A DNA stretch of 64,000 bases from a virus. The translations under genes and the position numbers were made by a program. This document shows, one piece after another, positions 53,890 through 58,430 of the stretch. The notes under the pieces were generated by a model. That model was given only the letters and a program-made list of their open reading frames with translations. It ran no database searches and had not been told where the DNA came from. Position 1 is the stretch's first letter; each line of letters opens with the position of its first letter. The stretch spans positions 23,338 to 87,337 of IMG/VR virus record IMGVR_UViG_3300047333_000104. One strand, given 5' to 3'.

Positions 53890-54209
53890 GTTATCTTCGG
53901 CAACAGCCCGAAAGCGGGCGTCTCGTTCAGCAGCATCGCCGCGAGCAGTTGATCCGCGCTGCCCTGCCGCTCGCCGAGAAGCACGGGTTCGAGCGCGTGA
54001 CGCGTAACATGGTCGCCGCCGCTGCTGGGTGCTCCGCATCGCTGATCTCCGCGTATTGGACCGCGCCGAACCTGCAAACGGCGATTATGGAAGAAGCGGT
54101 GCGCGTCAAATGCCTTCGCGTGATCGCGCAGGGGCTCGCGTCGAACCATCCGGCAGCGCTCGGGGCGCCATTCGAGGTTCGGAAGCTTGCGGCCGCATCG
54201 CTGGTTTAG
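53886..54209 (+). CDS. TetR-type helix-turn-helix protein, DNA-binding domain only (107 aa)
   Basis: Contains REQLIRAALPLAEKHGFERV then TRNMVAAAAGCSASLISAYW, the TetR HTH order. The ligand-binding C-terminal domain of TetR proteins is mostly missing. GTGA overlap with VRR-NUC. Could regulate the replication operon. Confidence 0.7.
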   Translation: MSYLRQQPESGRLVQQHRREQLIRAALPLAEKHGFERVTRNMVAAAAGCSASLISAYWTAPNLQTAIMEEAVRVKCLRVIAQGLASNHPAALGAPFEVRKLAAASLV

Positions 54210-54219
54210 GGAGTCAATC

Positions 54220-55329
54220 GTGGTCGCCTATTATAACGAGAACGACCCCTACGCCGCGCAATGGCTGAGGAATTTGATAGCCGAAGGGCTGATCGCACCG
54301 GGAGATGTTGATGAGCGTTCTATCGAAGACGTTACTGCCAGCGACGTGCGGGGATACACCCAAAAGCACTACTTTGCGGGACTTGGCGGCTGGTCCTTCG
54401 CTCTTAGAATCGCGGGATGGTCCGATGACCGACCCGTCACCACGGGGTCGTGCCCATGCCAACCGTTCTCACAAGCGGGCAAACAAAAAGGCTTCGACGA
54501 CCCCCGCCACCTCTGGCCTCATCTCCGAAGACTTGTCGCCGAGTCAGGCACTGACCCGCTCTTTATTGAACAGGTTGCCTCTGCATCTGAATGGATCTGT
54601 CTCGTGCGAAGTGATCTGGAAGCAATGGGACGCGCCGTGGGGGGAGTCCCTGTGGAAGCCGCGAGCGCGGGCGCGGAGCATTTTCGTGATCGATATTGGT
54701 TTGTGGCCGACTATCCAAGCTGCCGCGCGGATGCGGAGCGGTCATCAAGTGAACTTACAAGACCAAGTAATCTCTCTAGGAGTCTGGCCGACCGCTCGTG
54801 TGGGGAACAACGGCGGCTACGGGAATCCAGATCGTCTAATGAACCCGAAGAACTGCCGGATCGAAGATACGGTGCCGGGAGTGCTGAAATTCGCGACAGC
54901 GCCACCGGAGACGTCGATAGCGGTCGGCCTTTGGCCGACCGCTACGAGCCGGGATCACTTCCCGCCACACAGCGAGGAGTACATAGCGAGCAAGCGGGCG
55001 CAGGGCCACGGGATGTCGAACCTCAACGACACGGTCTATCATCTCGGAGTTTGGTCGACGCTCCGGGCCTCGGATGGGGAGAAGGGTGGACCGAACCAGA
55101 GTTTCGGAGCCGGGGGTTCACCGCTACCGTCGCAAATATCGACGGTTGCCAATACCTCGAATGTCCCGACGGAAAATGGCGCCGGCTCCCTCCACCCAGC
55201 GTTTTGTGGTTGGGAACTCGGATACCCGCCCGAATACCTAAATTGCGCGCCCTCGGAAACTCGATTGATCACCGGCCGGCGGTCGCGTTCATAAAGTCGT
55301 ACATGGATGTCGTCGAGGCGGGAGAATAG
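54220..55329 (+). CDS. C5-cytosine DNA methyltransferase (369 aa)
   Basis: Adds a methyl group to cytosine C5, usually for protection from host restriction. Motif I is HYFAGLGGWSFAL (about residue 50), motif IV GSCPCQPFS with catalytic Cys near 79, motif VI replaced by FIEQVAS (usual ENV-type), and RDRYWFVAD with ALGNSI near the end. The middle has repeated LADR/LVDA segments. GTG 54220 with AGGGAG six bases upstream is preferred. It shares nearly a kilobase with an overlapping frame that also looks coding. Confidence 0.85.
   Translation: MVAYYNENDPYAAQWLRNLIAEGLIAPGDVDERSIEDVTASDVRGYTQKHYFAGLGGWSFALRIAGWSDDRPVTTGSCPCQPFSQAGKQKGFDDPRHLWPHLRRLVAESGTDPLFIEQVASASEWICLVRSDLEAMGRAVGGVPVEAASAGAEHFRDRYWFVADYPSCRADAERSSSELTRPSNLSRSLADRSCGEQRRLRESRSSNEPEELPDRRYGAGSAEIRDSATGDVDSGRPLADRYEPGSLPATQRGVHSEQAGAGPRDVEPQRHGLSSRSLVDAPGLGWGEGWTEPEFRSRGFTATVANIDGCQYLECPDGKWRRLPPPSVLWLGTRIPARIPKLRALGNSIDHRPAVAFIKSYMDVVEAGE
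54311..55294 (+). CDS. Overlapping gene in the +1 frame of the cytosine methyltransferase (327 aa)
   Basis: ATG 54311 has its own GGAG six bases upstream. The product begins MSVLSKTLLPATCGDTPKS and has a Ser/Arg-rich region, then WPT-type repeats (GLWPTIQ, GVWPTAR, GLWPTATSRD, GVWSTLRASD) and a C-terminal PAFCGWELGYPPEYLNC. From memory, this pattern with ATCGDT, LTWK-like and GYPPEW signatures recurs as a distinct protein family in phages and prophages. The WPT repeats coincide with LAD repeats in the methyltransferase frame. An experimental product is not shown here. Confidence 0.55.
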   Translation: MSVLSKTLLPATCGDTPKSTTLRDLAAGPSLLESRDGPMTDPSPRGRAHANRSHKRANKKASTTPATSGLISEDLSPSQALTRSLLNRLPLHLNGSVSCEVIWKQWDAPWGESLWKPRARARSIFVIDIGLWPTIQAAARMRSGHQVNLQDQVISLGVWPTARVGNNGGYGNPDRLMNPKNCRIEDTVPGVLKFATAPPETSIAVGLWPTATSRDHFPPHSEEYIASKRAQGHGMSNLNDTVYHLGVWSTLRASDGEKGGPNQSFGAGGSPLPSQISTVANTSNVPTENGAGSLHPAFCGWELGYPPEYLNCAPSETRLITGRRSRS

Positions 55330-55331
55330 CC

Positions 55332-55835
55332 ATGGATCTTCGCGAGATTTACCTAACCCGAGGTGCCGTCTGCCTCATCTCCGCCGCCGACTATCCACGC
55401 GTCTCGCCCTACAAATGGCGTCTCCAAGTCAACGAGCATAGCGGCAAGCAATACGCCACGACCGATATCCTGGGCCGCAAGGTCTATCTTCACCGCTTCC
55501 TCACGAACTGCCCGCGCGGTTTGGTCGTCGATCACGAGGACGGCGACGGCCTCCACGACTGGCGGGAGAACCTCCGCGTCACCACGCACGCTTTCAACCA
55601 GGCGAATTGCTGCGCGTTCGGCGTCGTGCCATATCGCGGAGTTACCAAAGATGGCCGCAAGTTCCGGGCGCGGATCAACGACCGCCATCTCGGTTCGTTC
55701 GACGACCCCGCCGATGCCGCGCGCGCCTATGACGCCGCCGCTCTCGCCGAATGGGGCGACTTTGCGTGGCTGAACTTCAAGGAGGCACGCCCCGCTTGCG
55801 CCGTCACTCCTATCGCCCAGGACCCGCCATTTTGA
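55332..55835 (+). CDS. HNH endonuclease with AP2 DNA-binding domain (167 aa)
   Basis: HNH_3 core: H54, VVDHEDGDGLHDWRENLR (about 65-82). The C-terminal AP2-type module is YRGVTKDGRKFRARI (101-115) and HLGSFDDPADAARAYDAAAL. Common small mobile enzyme in phages. Starts 2 bases after the methyltransferase stop. Confidence 0.85.
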   Translation: MDLREIYLTRGAVCLISAADYPRVSPYKWRLQVNEHSGKQYATTDILGRKVYLHRFLTNCPRGLVVDHEDGDGLHDWRENLRVTTHAFNQANCCAFGVVPYRGVTKDGRKFRARINDRHLGSFDDPADAARAYDAAALAEWGDFAWLNFKEARPACAVTPIAQDPPF

Positions 55836-56038
55836 CCGGCTGGGGCGAATTCACCGATTACGAGCGCGAGATCATCGAGCTTCGTAACCGCGGCAACGAG
55901 GATATCGAGCGCCTGCTCGCCGTTCTCAAGGAAACCGAGAATCAAATCGCCGATGACGCTCATTGGCGAGAAGAGATGGCTCGTAATGAAGGTTTTGTCG
56001 CCGGCTGGAACGCCGCGCTCAAACAAGCAAAGACGTGA
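55832..56038 (+). CDS. Small helical protein (68 aa)
   Basis: TTG start in a TTGA overlap. Sequence is acidic and helical (TDYEREIIELRNRGNEDIER). No family recognised. A longer frame upstream covers the HNH gene. Confidence 0.55.
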   Translation: MTGWGEFTDYEREIIELRNRGNEDIERLLAVLKETENQIADDAHWREEMARNEGFVAGWNAALKQAKT

Positions 56039-56042
56039 ACCT

Positions 56043-58430
56043 ATGCAATCCGTTCCCGCCGCCTTCGCCGCCATGGCTCGGTACGAGCAGTTCATCCTCT
56101 ATCGTACGCAGCCATCGTCGATCCGCCCCGGCAAGACAGACAAGTTCCCGGTCGATTGGCGGTCCGGCGCGGTCGCCGACGCACACAACCGAGAGATCTG
56201 GACGAGCGCCGAGAACGCTATCGCCGCCGCCGAGGTTTGGGGGGCGCCTTATGGTTTCGGGTTCGTTATCAGCGAAACGGACCCGTTCTGGTTTCTTGAT
56301 ATAGACAATTGCCTCACTCCGACCGGCTGGTCGCCTTTGGCGCTCGAACTCTGCAACCGTTTGCCTGGCGCCGCGTGCGAAATCAGTTGGTCCGGCAACG
56401 GATTGCACCTTTTCGGTTCCGGCGCGGTGCCGCCGCACGGCTGCAAGAACGTCACCGCCGGAATCGAACTTTATACCTCCGGTCGTTTTGCAGCTCTCAC
56501 TTTCAACGGCGCGCAGGGCGACTGCGGGCTGGATTTCTCCGCGCATATCGCGCCCGTTGTCGCGCTCTATTTCCCCCTAAATGGCGGTAACGGTCCAATC
56601 GACGACGCTAACTGGACGACAGCACCGTGCCCCGCATGGGGAGGCCCGGAAGACGACGATGCGCTAATTGAGATGATGCTCAACGCCAAAGAGTCAGCCC
56701 AAGTCGCCTTTGCCGGTAAAGCCAGTCTCCGCGATCTGTGGGAGGCCAACGAGGAAGCCCTGGCGCGTACTTACCCCGACCCCAACCGCGCCTACGACGC
56801 TTCCAGCGCCGACGCAGCGCTCGCTCAGCACCTCGCGTTTTGGACCGGCAAAGACTGTGCCCGCATGGACCGCCTGATGCGCCGGTCAGCGCTCGCCCGC
56901 GAGAAATGGGACTCCCGCGGCGATTATTACCTGCCTCGCACGATCATGCGCGCGACATCCATGCAGGGCGATCGAGTGCTCCAGGGCAAAGGCGCGGCAC
57001 CCACAGGTATTCCCGCACCTGGCGATCTCGCCGTTTCGCCGATAGCGCTCGCCAGCGACCTCGACGCGCATTTCGCTGGCTGTGTCTATGTGGAGAGCCT
57101 ATACGTCGCCGCAGTGCCGGACGGTAGTCTTCTCACCCCGCAGCAATTCAGGTCGAGCACGCGGTATGGCGGCCGCGAGTTTCCGATCACTCACAGGGGG
57201 AGGCCGGTCAAGAATGCATGGGAGGCATTTACGGAGAACTGCTGCGGCTTCAAACCTGTTCACGCCCACCAACTCTGCTTTCGCCCTGAATTGCCTTCCA
57301 GAGCGATCGTCGAGGAGAACGGCCGGCGGTTGCTCAACAACTATGTCCCGATAGAGACGGCAGCCAAAGAAGGCGATGTGACGCCGTTCCTCGCGCATAT
57401 GGCGAAGCTCCTGCCGGTAAGTACGGACCGTGAGTACCTCGTCGCCTATATGGCGAGCCTGCTGCAGAATCCGGGCGTCAAATTCGGTTGGGCGCCGCTC
57501 ATCCAGGGGGTAGAGGGCAACGGTAAGTCCTTCCTCATCGAGATCATGGTGCGTTGCGTTGGTCAGCGCTATTCGCATCTGCCAAACGCGCAAGACTTGG
57601 CCAATAAGTTCAACACTTGGATGGAGAATAAGCTTTTCATTGGCGTCGAGGAGATCTACATCCGCGAGAAACAAGAGCTGATCGAGACCCTGAAAACTTA
57701 CGTCACGAACGCCTGGATCGAGAACCAAGGCAAGGGTGCGAACCAAACGATGATGGACAATCGCGCCAATATGATGCTGCTGACCAACCACAAGGACGCG
57801 ATGCCTAAAACCAACCGCGACCGCCGGTACGGGATTTTCTTCACGGCGCAGCAGGAAGAGATCGATTTGCGGCGTGACGGTATGGACGGAAAGTATTTTA
57901 CGGAGTTTAAGGCTTGGTTGGACACGGGGGGTTACGAGATCATCAACTACTTCCTACGCCACCTTGAGATCCCCGCAGCGATCGATCCAGCTAAAGAATG
58001 CCGGCGTGCGCCCGTTACATCCACCACGGTTGAGGCGATCGAGGTCAGTCTTGGCGTGGTCGAACAAACCATACAAGAGGCAGTGGCTTCGGGAGAGATG
58101 GGCTTCCAGGGCGGGTTCATATCCTCGACCGCACTCGTCCGGCTATTGAGGGAACACCGACTTGAGGCGCGTTGCCCGAAGAACCGTTGGGACCCGATGA
58201 TGCTGACGCTCGGCTATATCAAGCATCCGGCCTTGCCTGACGGGCGGCTCAACAATCCTGCCTATGGAGACGAAGGGAAAAAGTCGCGGATTTGGGTCAA
58301 GAAGGGGAGTATCCAGGCGCTCAACCTTACGTCGCCGGCCGAGGTCGCGCGGGCCTATGGGATAGCGAATGGAGCGGATAAGTTGGCGATTGGACAGGGC
58401 GCAGTGCCGGCGCCGCCGGGGCGGCCTTAA
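56043..58430 (+). CDS. Primase-helicase, bifunctional PrimPol-like plus D5-type helicase (795 aa)
   Basis: N-terminal primase-polymerase-like domain: FLDIDN (D86, D88) and SWSGNGLHLFGSG. The C-terminal helicase (DUF5906/D5 type) has Walker A LIQGVEGNGKS (about 487-497), a Walker B-like IGVEEIY and sensor VTNAWIENQG region. It supplies priming and unwinding for replication. Start ATG 56043 rather than an upstream ATG overlapping the neighbour. Confidence 0.8.
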   Translation: MQSVPAAFAAMARYEQFILYRTQPSSIRPGKTDKFPVDWRSGAVADAHNREIWTSAENAIAAAEVWGAPYGFGFVISETDPFWFLDIDNCLTPTGWSPLALELCNRLPGAACEISWSGNGLHLFGSGAVPPHGCKNVTAGIELYTSGRFAALTFNGAQGDCGLDFSAHIAPVVALYFPLNGGNGPIDDANWTTAPCPAWGGPEDDDALIEMMLNAKESAQVAFAGKASLRDLWEANEEALARTYPDPNRAYDASSADAALAQHLAFWTGKDCARMDRLMRRSALAREKWDSRGDYYLPRTIMRATSMQGDRVLQGKGAAPTGIPAPGDLAVSPIALASDLDAHFAGCVYVESLYVAAVPDGSLLTPQQFRSSTRYGGREFPITHRGRPVKNAWEAFTENCCGFKPVHAHQLCFRPELPSRAIVEENGRRLLNNYVPIETAAKEGDVTPFLAHMAKLLPVSTDREYLVAYMASLLQNPGVKFGWAPLIQGVEGNGKSFLIEIMVRCVGQRYSHLPNAQDLANKFNTWMENKLFIGVEEIYIREKQELIETLKTYVTNAWIENQGKGANQTMMDNRANMMLLTNHKDAMPKTNRDRRYGIFFTAQQEEIDLRRDGMDGKYFTEFKAWLDTGGYEIINYFLRHLEIPAAIDPAKECRRAPVTSTTVEAIEVSLGVVEQTIQEAVASGEMGFQGGFISSTALVRLLREHRLEARCPKNRWDPMMLTLGYIKHPALPDGRLNNPAYGDEGKKSRIWVKKGSIQALNLTSPAEVARAYGIANGADKLAIGQGAVPAPPGRP

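Follow-up and report, generated by a model that had tools for sequence, protein, structure and literature searches.

A phage C5-cytosine DNA methyltransferase very probably made as two subunits from overlapping reading frames

Results

Organization of the methyltransferase locus

The window (the entire 64 000-nucleotide stretch of viral DNA that was analysed) carries a C5-cytosine methyltransferase gene, here called alpha, which extends from GTG 54220 to the stop at 55329 and remains open over those coordinates (369 aa); this and the other features of the alpha–beta pair are on the plus strand. A probable ribosome-binding site, GGGAG (54209–54213), was recognized from the sequence 6 bases before the GTG. 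Alpha matched PF00145 in Pfam (E 5.7e-9, 36.3 bits with a cut-off of 22) over residues 86–131 only, and phrog_363 in PHROG (E 1.4e-59). Motif I (FAGLGG, 54373–54390), motif IV (PCQPFS, 54454–54471, including the catalytic cysteine as located by alignment with M.HhaI), motif VI (EQVAS, 54568–54582) and motif VIII (RDRYWFVA, 54685–54708) are together in this one polypeptide, as is motif X (LGNSI, 55252–55266). A linker bearing LAD repeats (54709–55130, limits approximate) follows motif VIII. The first-pass annotation had taken this frame for a complete C5 methyltransferase. That description did not hold: neither motif IX nor the target-recognition region is present in alpha, which has motifs I–VIII and X, so that the recognition domain, IX and X are not found in a single chain, X being in alpha and the rest in beta. 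The alpha of the window also deviates from residues that are near-invariant among its relatives, having T for W before TGSCPCQPFS (54438–54446) and replacements of P111 and G116 (54550–54570), and its activity is therefore not to be taken for granted.

The second reading frame, beta, lies in the +1 frame and extends from ATG 54311 to a stop codon at 55292–55294 (54311–55294, 327 aa). It was assigned as the protein bearing the putative target-recognition region and motif IX from its PHROG match, permutation, codon positions and profile comparison. Beta matched phrog_1008 (E 5.5e-15, label 'DNA methyltransferase'), a family also matched by all 47 relatives in alignment A1; beta alone gave no match in Pfam, NCBIfam or PADLOC. 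Its probable ribosome-binding site, GGAG (54301–54304), is 6 bases before ATG 54311, a pattern repeated in phage Tunturi_1; a second ATG at 54305 abuts the GGAG, and the +1 frame is already open upstream of ATG 54311. The start, the spacing of the GGAG and the 327 codons agree with the first-pass annotation, as do four places at which WPT repeats of one frame and LAD repeats of the other come from the same bases: the four W(P/S)T codon sets of beta begin at 54704, 54785, 54932 and 55052, and read in frame 1 as VAD, LAD, LAD and LVD.

Within beta, a predicted N-domain of a helix and a beta-hairpin (residues 77–121, 54539–54673, from an AlphaFold model and substitution rates) is encoded by bases that overlap alpha motifs VI–VIII. 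The putative target-recognition region with the four W(P/S)T repeats (54701–55189, from permutation and profile comparison) follows, and the bases of the alpha linker double as its code. Motif IX, LHPAFCGWELGYPPEY (55190–55237), was placed by alignment to single-chain homologues. The WPT/LAD codons at 54704, 54785 and 54932 contain TGGCCG, which fits YGGCCR, the site reported for M.EcoHK31I; this is probably a coincidence of codon choice.

The neighbours of the locus include a DEAD/ResIII helicase, a TetR-type HTH protein, a weak HNH match and an NrS-1/VapE-like protein, and no restriction nuclease partner was recognized beside the locus. The HNH_3 match (E 0.0018) is directly behind alpha at 55332–55835 and falls below the cut-off. 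The reading frame at 55953–58430 has NrS-1 polymerase-like HBD, DUF5906 and VapE-like domains and probably encodes a replication protein.

The second frame recurs in all relatives

A conserved, GC-rich methyltransferase gene could leave a +1 frame open as a non-functional by-product, and a single gene of 60% GC would do so by chance at about 0.1–1%. When the codons of the window gene were permuted synonymously with the alpha protein fixed, the +1 span was stop-free in 0.1% of 5000 permutations, and in 1.2% if codons were drawn from the usage of the phage itself. Taken alone, the window thus offers moderate evidence against chance openness.

Across relatives the evidence against chance openness is overwhelming. 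Relatives were gathered in three ways with the methyltransferase (alpha) as the only query, which yielded 210 loci; a recognizable beta reading frame was present in every one (210/210), always in the +1 frame, and both proteins were full length in 196. The +1 frame is open also in relatives of 47–52% GC (Paenibacillus phage Leyra, Lacticaseibacillus phage R9.2, N15, Vibrio phage Vaitephage and pangalan), which argues against a by-product of high GC. The suggestion in the first-pass annotation that the second protein type occurs in other phages was thereby borne out, as was the suggestion that it often goes unrecognized as overlapping. In Tunturi_1 (L072, XJP11540), the nearest annotated phage, only beta is annotated, as 'DNA methyltransferase', and the catalytic alpha frame was missed; in PMG1 (L093, YP_005098260) only beta is annotated, as 'DNA methyltransferase', and the alpha over the same DNA was missed.

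The converse dependence was also apparent. With beta held fixed, the alpha frame would be expected to stay open through the recognition region in approximately nine of the 96 testable loci and was open in all 96, which indicates that the open alpha frame is maintained so that translation extends to motif X. Three of the 210 loci (L020, L024 and L334) have an intact beta but a stop codon in alpha, located between motifs VIII and X; these loci are either decayed or represent a form whose alpha no longer has motif X. A locus on a Citrobacter amalonaticus plasmid (L297) is a decayed pair, the beta frame of which runs into a YadA C-terminal domain annotation. No EcoHK31I-like restriction-modification system on a plasmid was found among the matches listed, of which this Citrobacter region was the one inspected.

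The frame under selection switches along the gene

In a +1 overlap, positions 3 and 1 of alpha codons fall on positions 2 and 3 of beta codons, respectively, and this offset allows selection on the two frames to be distinguished. In 70 epsilon15-type genes, alpha position 3 took 87% of the changes upstream of the overlap. From motif VIII to motif X of the same genes, alpha position 1 took 60% of the changes and position 3 only 18%; around motif X, alpha position 3 was again the leading site of change. When disjoint pairs of the epsilon15 cluster were compared, changes at alpha position 1 exceeded those at position 3 between VIII and X in 27/27 pairs, and the upstream part gave the reverse, alpha-frame pattern in 26/26.

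Overlap-aware, OLGenie-style rates were calculated for each frame in epsilon15-type relatives. Before the beta start, dN/dS was 0.06 for alpha and 1.51 (0.88–2.82) for beta, the latter value indicating that there is no beta there. In the N-terminal tail of beta the beta value was 0.47, and beta residues before ∼69 are weakly constrained in relatives. Both frames are constrained over the beta N-domain (alpha 0.18, beta 0.27) and over the segment of motif IX and pre-X (alpha 0.64, beta 0.36). Over the recognition region dN/dS was 0.93 (0.84–1.02) for alpha and 0.34 (0.27–0.40) for beta, so that the alpha linker of these relatives is near neutral, though kept open. The strongest of these tests rest on epsilon15-type relatives, which are not closely related to the window. 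Comparison of the window with relatives of its own gave the same flip at higher divergence: the C-terminal half had its changes most often at beta position 3, the N-terminal half at alpha position 3.

Profile scores of the two halves of beta were compared with those of permuted sequences in which the alpha of the window was fixed. The C-terminal half scored 151.5 bits, against 8 ± 8 when permuted (z = 18). The N-terminal half scored 108.4 bits against 82 ± 8.5 (z 3.1); approximately three quarters of its score (82 of 108 bits) survives synonymous permutation, as a by-product of alpha would. A proposed strong conservation of this half independent of alpha was weakened accordingly, most of its score being attributable to alpha, and what it keeps is a modest but real excess, with clear selection in the epsilon15 cluster.

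The flip of the codon-position rates, in 27/27 pairs and with alpha at 0.93 where beta is at 0.34, refutes the reading of the +1 frame as a by-product, which the z of 18 and the conserved internal ribosome-binding site and ATG described below also oppose and which is now scarcely credible. Judged from these substitution patterns, the two frames at the locus are two selected proteins, as the first-pass annotation had supposed. Normal synonymous variation in the methyltransferase frame, which it had named as counting against the overlap, was sought through both codon positions and rates, and the overlap withstood this.

Start signals of beta

The epsilon15-type genes have AAAGGAG with an ATG eight bases later, inside the alpha codons for ERSIED, and this internal ATG is present in 70/70 of them. 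Third-position diversity at the internal start was 0.04, compared with 0.31–0.35 on either side. AGG serves as the Arg codon at the start site in 50% of 180 distinct genes and in 8% of cases elsewhere in those genes; 128/180 have GGAG together with ATG. These sequence data show that in relatives beta possesses start signals of its own.

The window and Tunturi_1 are without the family-wide GGAG–ATG pair and have a pair of their own a few codons upstream. ATG 54311 was considered as the conserved start of the family and was rejected, an ATG being there in only about half of the relatives; most have GGAG and ATG a few codons downstream of that site. The start proposed in the first-pass annotation is therefore common to Tunturi_1 and is not that of most relatives, and ATG 54311 is likely to be a local beta start rather than the family-wide one.

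If ribosomes instead underwent a programmed +1 frameshift past motif VIII, one polypeptide with motifs I–VIII, the recognition region and motif IX would result, and many actinophage alphas do stop just after VIII with the recognition region immediately next in the +1 frame. For the overlapped class such a shift is very unlikely, since the beta N-domain upstream of the shift point is constrained (beta dN/dS 0.27) and is confidently predicted to fold, the internal ribosome-binding site and ATG are conserved, and the fused product would be without motif X.

Beta carries the parts that alpha lacks

Single-chain relatives from actinophages have, in one frame, motifs I–VIII, LPTP repeats, WMMGWPxGW (motif IX) and GNGVVPQQA (motif X). 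The beta profile finds its own C-terminal half inside these enzymes, and in profile–profile comparison alpha fell on the N-terminal part of the single chain (E 5.1e-20) and beta on the repeats and motif IX (E 3.7e-11). The single-chain model matched M.HhaI along most of its length, and the single-chain motif IX aligns in order with KLHPRECARVMGYPDSYK of M.HhaI, the HMMER score of −2.8 bits not being significant alone. The LHPAFCGWELGYPPEY of the window beta aligned to motif IX of the single-chain homologues and can be identified as that motif. At the level of sequence, the C-terminal half of beta is homologous to the single-chain segment between motifs VIII and X. In C5 methyltransferases the target is recognized through the variable region between VIII and IX (PMC3404938), which would place the recognition region here in beta.

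The structure of beta alone was modelled with AlphaFold2 from the beta alignment. A helix and a beta-hairpin were confidently predicted at residues 77–121; the model was poor outside these residues (mean pLDDT 56.7). Foldseek of the model against the PDB gave no fold match, and neither did a profile search of the PDB with the beta alignment. Beta could be a real protein whose function lies outside methylation, such as regulation through DNA binding or anti-restriction, and its want of a Pfam, NCBIfam or PADLOC match and of a PDB fold match is consistent with this. Such a function is nonetheless very improbable: the C-terminal half of beta sits in frame between VIII and X of single-chain methyltransferases, exactly those parts are consistently absent from alpha, and M.EcoHK31I provides a precedent for the division. 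The first-pass annotation had proposed that the second protein may be a specificity or helper factor; this is very likely right, and beta would be a missing part of the enzyme rather than an accessory to it.

Discussion

The gene for the small subunit of M.EcoHK31I lies inside that for the large subunit, in another frame. The window resembles this enzyme in the following respects: the large subunit, alpha, has motifs I–VIII and X and no IX, motif IX is on a second polypeptide, beta, and that polypeptide is selected in another frame of the gene. These data suggest that the locus very probably encodes a two-subunit C5-cytosine methyltransferase of the M.EcoHK31I kind, with a catalytic alpha and a target-recognizing beta. 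One mRNA would give, through its overlapping frames, two polypeptides of one enzyme. Alpha, in frame 1, would supply the AdoMet-binding and catalytic motifs I–VIII and motif X; beta, translated independently from the internal ribosome-binding site, would supply the N-terminal helix–hairpin domain, the repeat-bearing target-recognition region and motif IX. We infer that the two associate as in M.EcoHK31I, with beta as the small domain that reads the DNA and alpha as the catalytic one, that beta recognizes the target, and that the enzyme is active and has a biological role. Most likely it would methylate the DNA of the phage itself and so evade host restriction, because it is an orphan methyltransferase with no nuclease partner recognized adjacent; M.EcoHK31I, in contrast, is part of a restriction-modification system.

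M.EcoHK31I (YGGCCR) consists of two polypeptides, with motifs I–VIII and X in the larger and IX in the smaller (PMC3404938), and has been described as naturally split (PMC3439449); the likeness to the window is drawn from such descriptions. A review places its predicted target-recognition domain in the large subunit (PMC3404938), whereas in the window the recognition region is assigned to beta; if M.EcoHK31I belongs to the present family, the codon positions argue that its recognition domain is in the small subunit. M.AquI (CYCGRG) likewise has its catalytic and recognition parts on two polypeptides, but its smaller subunit has both IX and X, whereas in the window X stays with alpha (PMC3404938). 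The single-chain C5 methyltransferases of mycobacteriophages (e.g. Rita gp76) share the LPTP/WPT repeats, motif IX and the catalytic core with the window, but have every part in one frame rather than two.

In annotation the pair has been recorded piecemeal. The families phrog_363 (alpha) and phrog_1008 (beta) are both labelled DNA methyltransferase and kept separate, and the labels are silent on their being two frames of one gene. The 'Mte8-like protein' and the doubly annotated pairs of fTaEco01 (TE1_031/032), Leyra (gp61/gp62) and PhiXhv-28 are the same overlapping pair, and in the doubly annotated cases the second protein is named just methyltransferase, with no role of its own. A search of the available literature found no earlier description of this phage overlap. 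The mechanism has a precedent, and the new elements are its breadth, the evidence for a recognition region in beta and the systematic mis-annotation.

In a tree of the catalytic core, which has few columns and leaves the deep forks unresolved, the overlapped form spans proteobacterial and Firmicutes phage clades, and the single-chain and split forms are concentrated and interleaved in the actinophage part. Actinophage relatives (L175–L220, L087 Upyo and L088 Rita) have the recognition region and motif IX, with or without X, in either the alpha frame or the +1 frame. In the +1 cases alpha ends just past motif VIII and the recognition region begins immediately afterwards, which may be a programmed +1 frameshift or split genes, both being possible. 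Near neighbours differ, L176 being single-chain and L191 split.

A broader reading is somewhat more likely than not. In it, this phage-wide family of C5 methyltransferases, in proteobacterial, Firmicutes and cyanobacterial phages, would be obligately two-subunit, and its modular, fast-changing recognition region would be read in the +1 frame from bases that in alpha encode a nearly neutral linker. Specificity could then evolve without disturbance of the catalytic chain, the recognition domain assigned to the large subunit would be a misassignment, and the actinophage region would toggle between one-frame, split and possibly frameshifted forms.

The locus belongs to a known and rare-seeming kind that proves to be common. 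The overlap is long and on the same strand, roughly 230–330 codons in most relatives, and occurs in phages of several bacterial phyla; the gene family is large, in phages and prophages, and one of the two proteins is often unannotated. Along one gene, the selected frame switches cleanly. The overlapping arrangement accounts both for the incomplete appearance of these phage methyltransferases and for the many 'DNA methyltransferase' or hypothetical entries that would really be a specificity subunit. It also predicts that expression which destroys the +1 frame, as codon-optimized synthesis does, would give an inactive enzyme, a prediction that bears on methylome work and on phage annotation.
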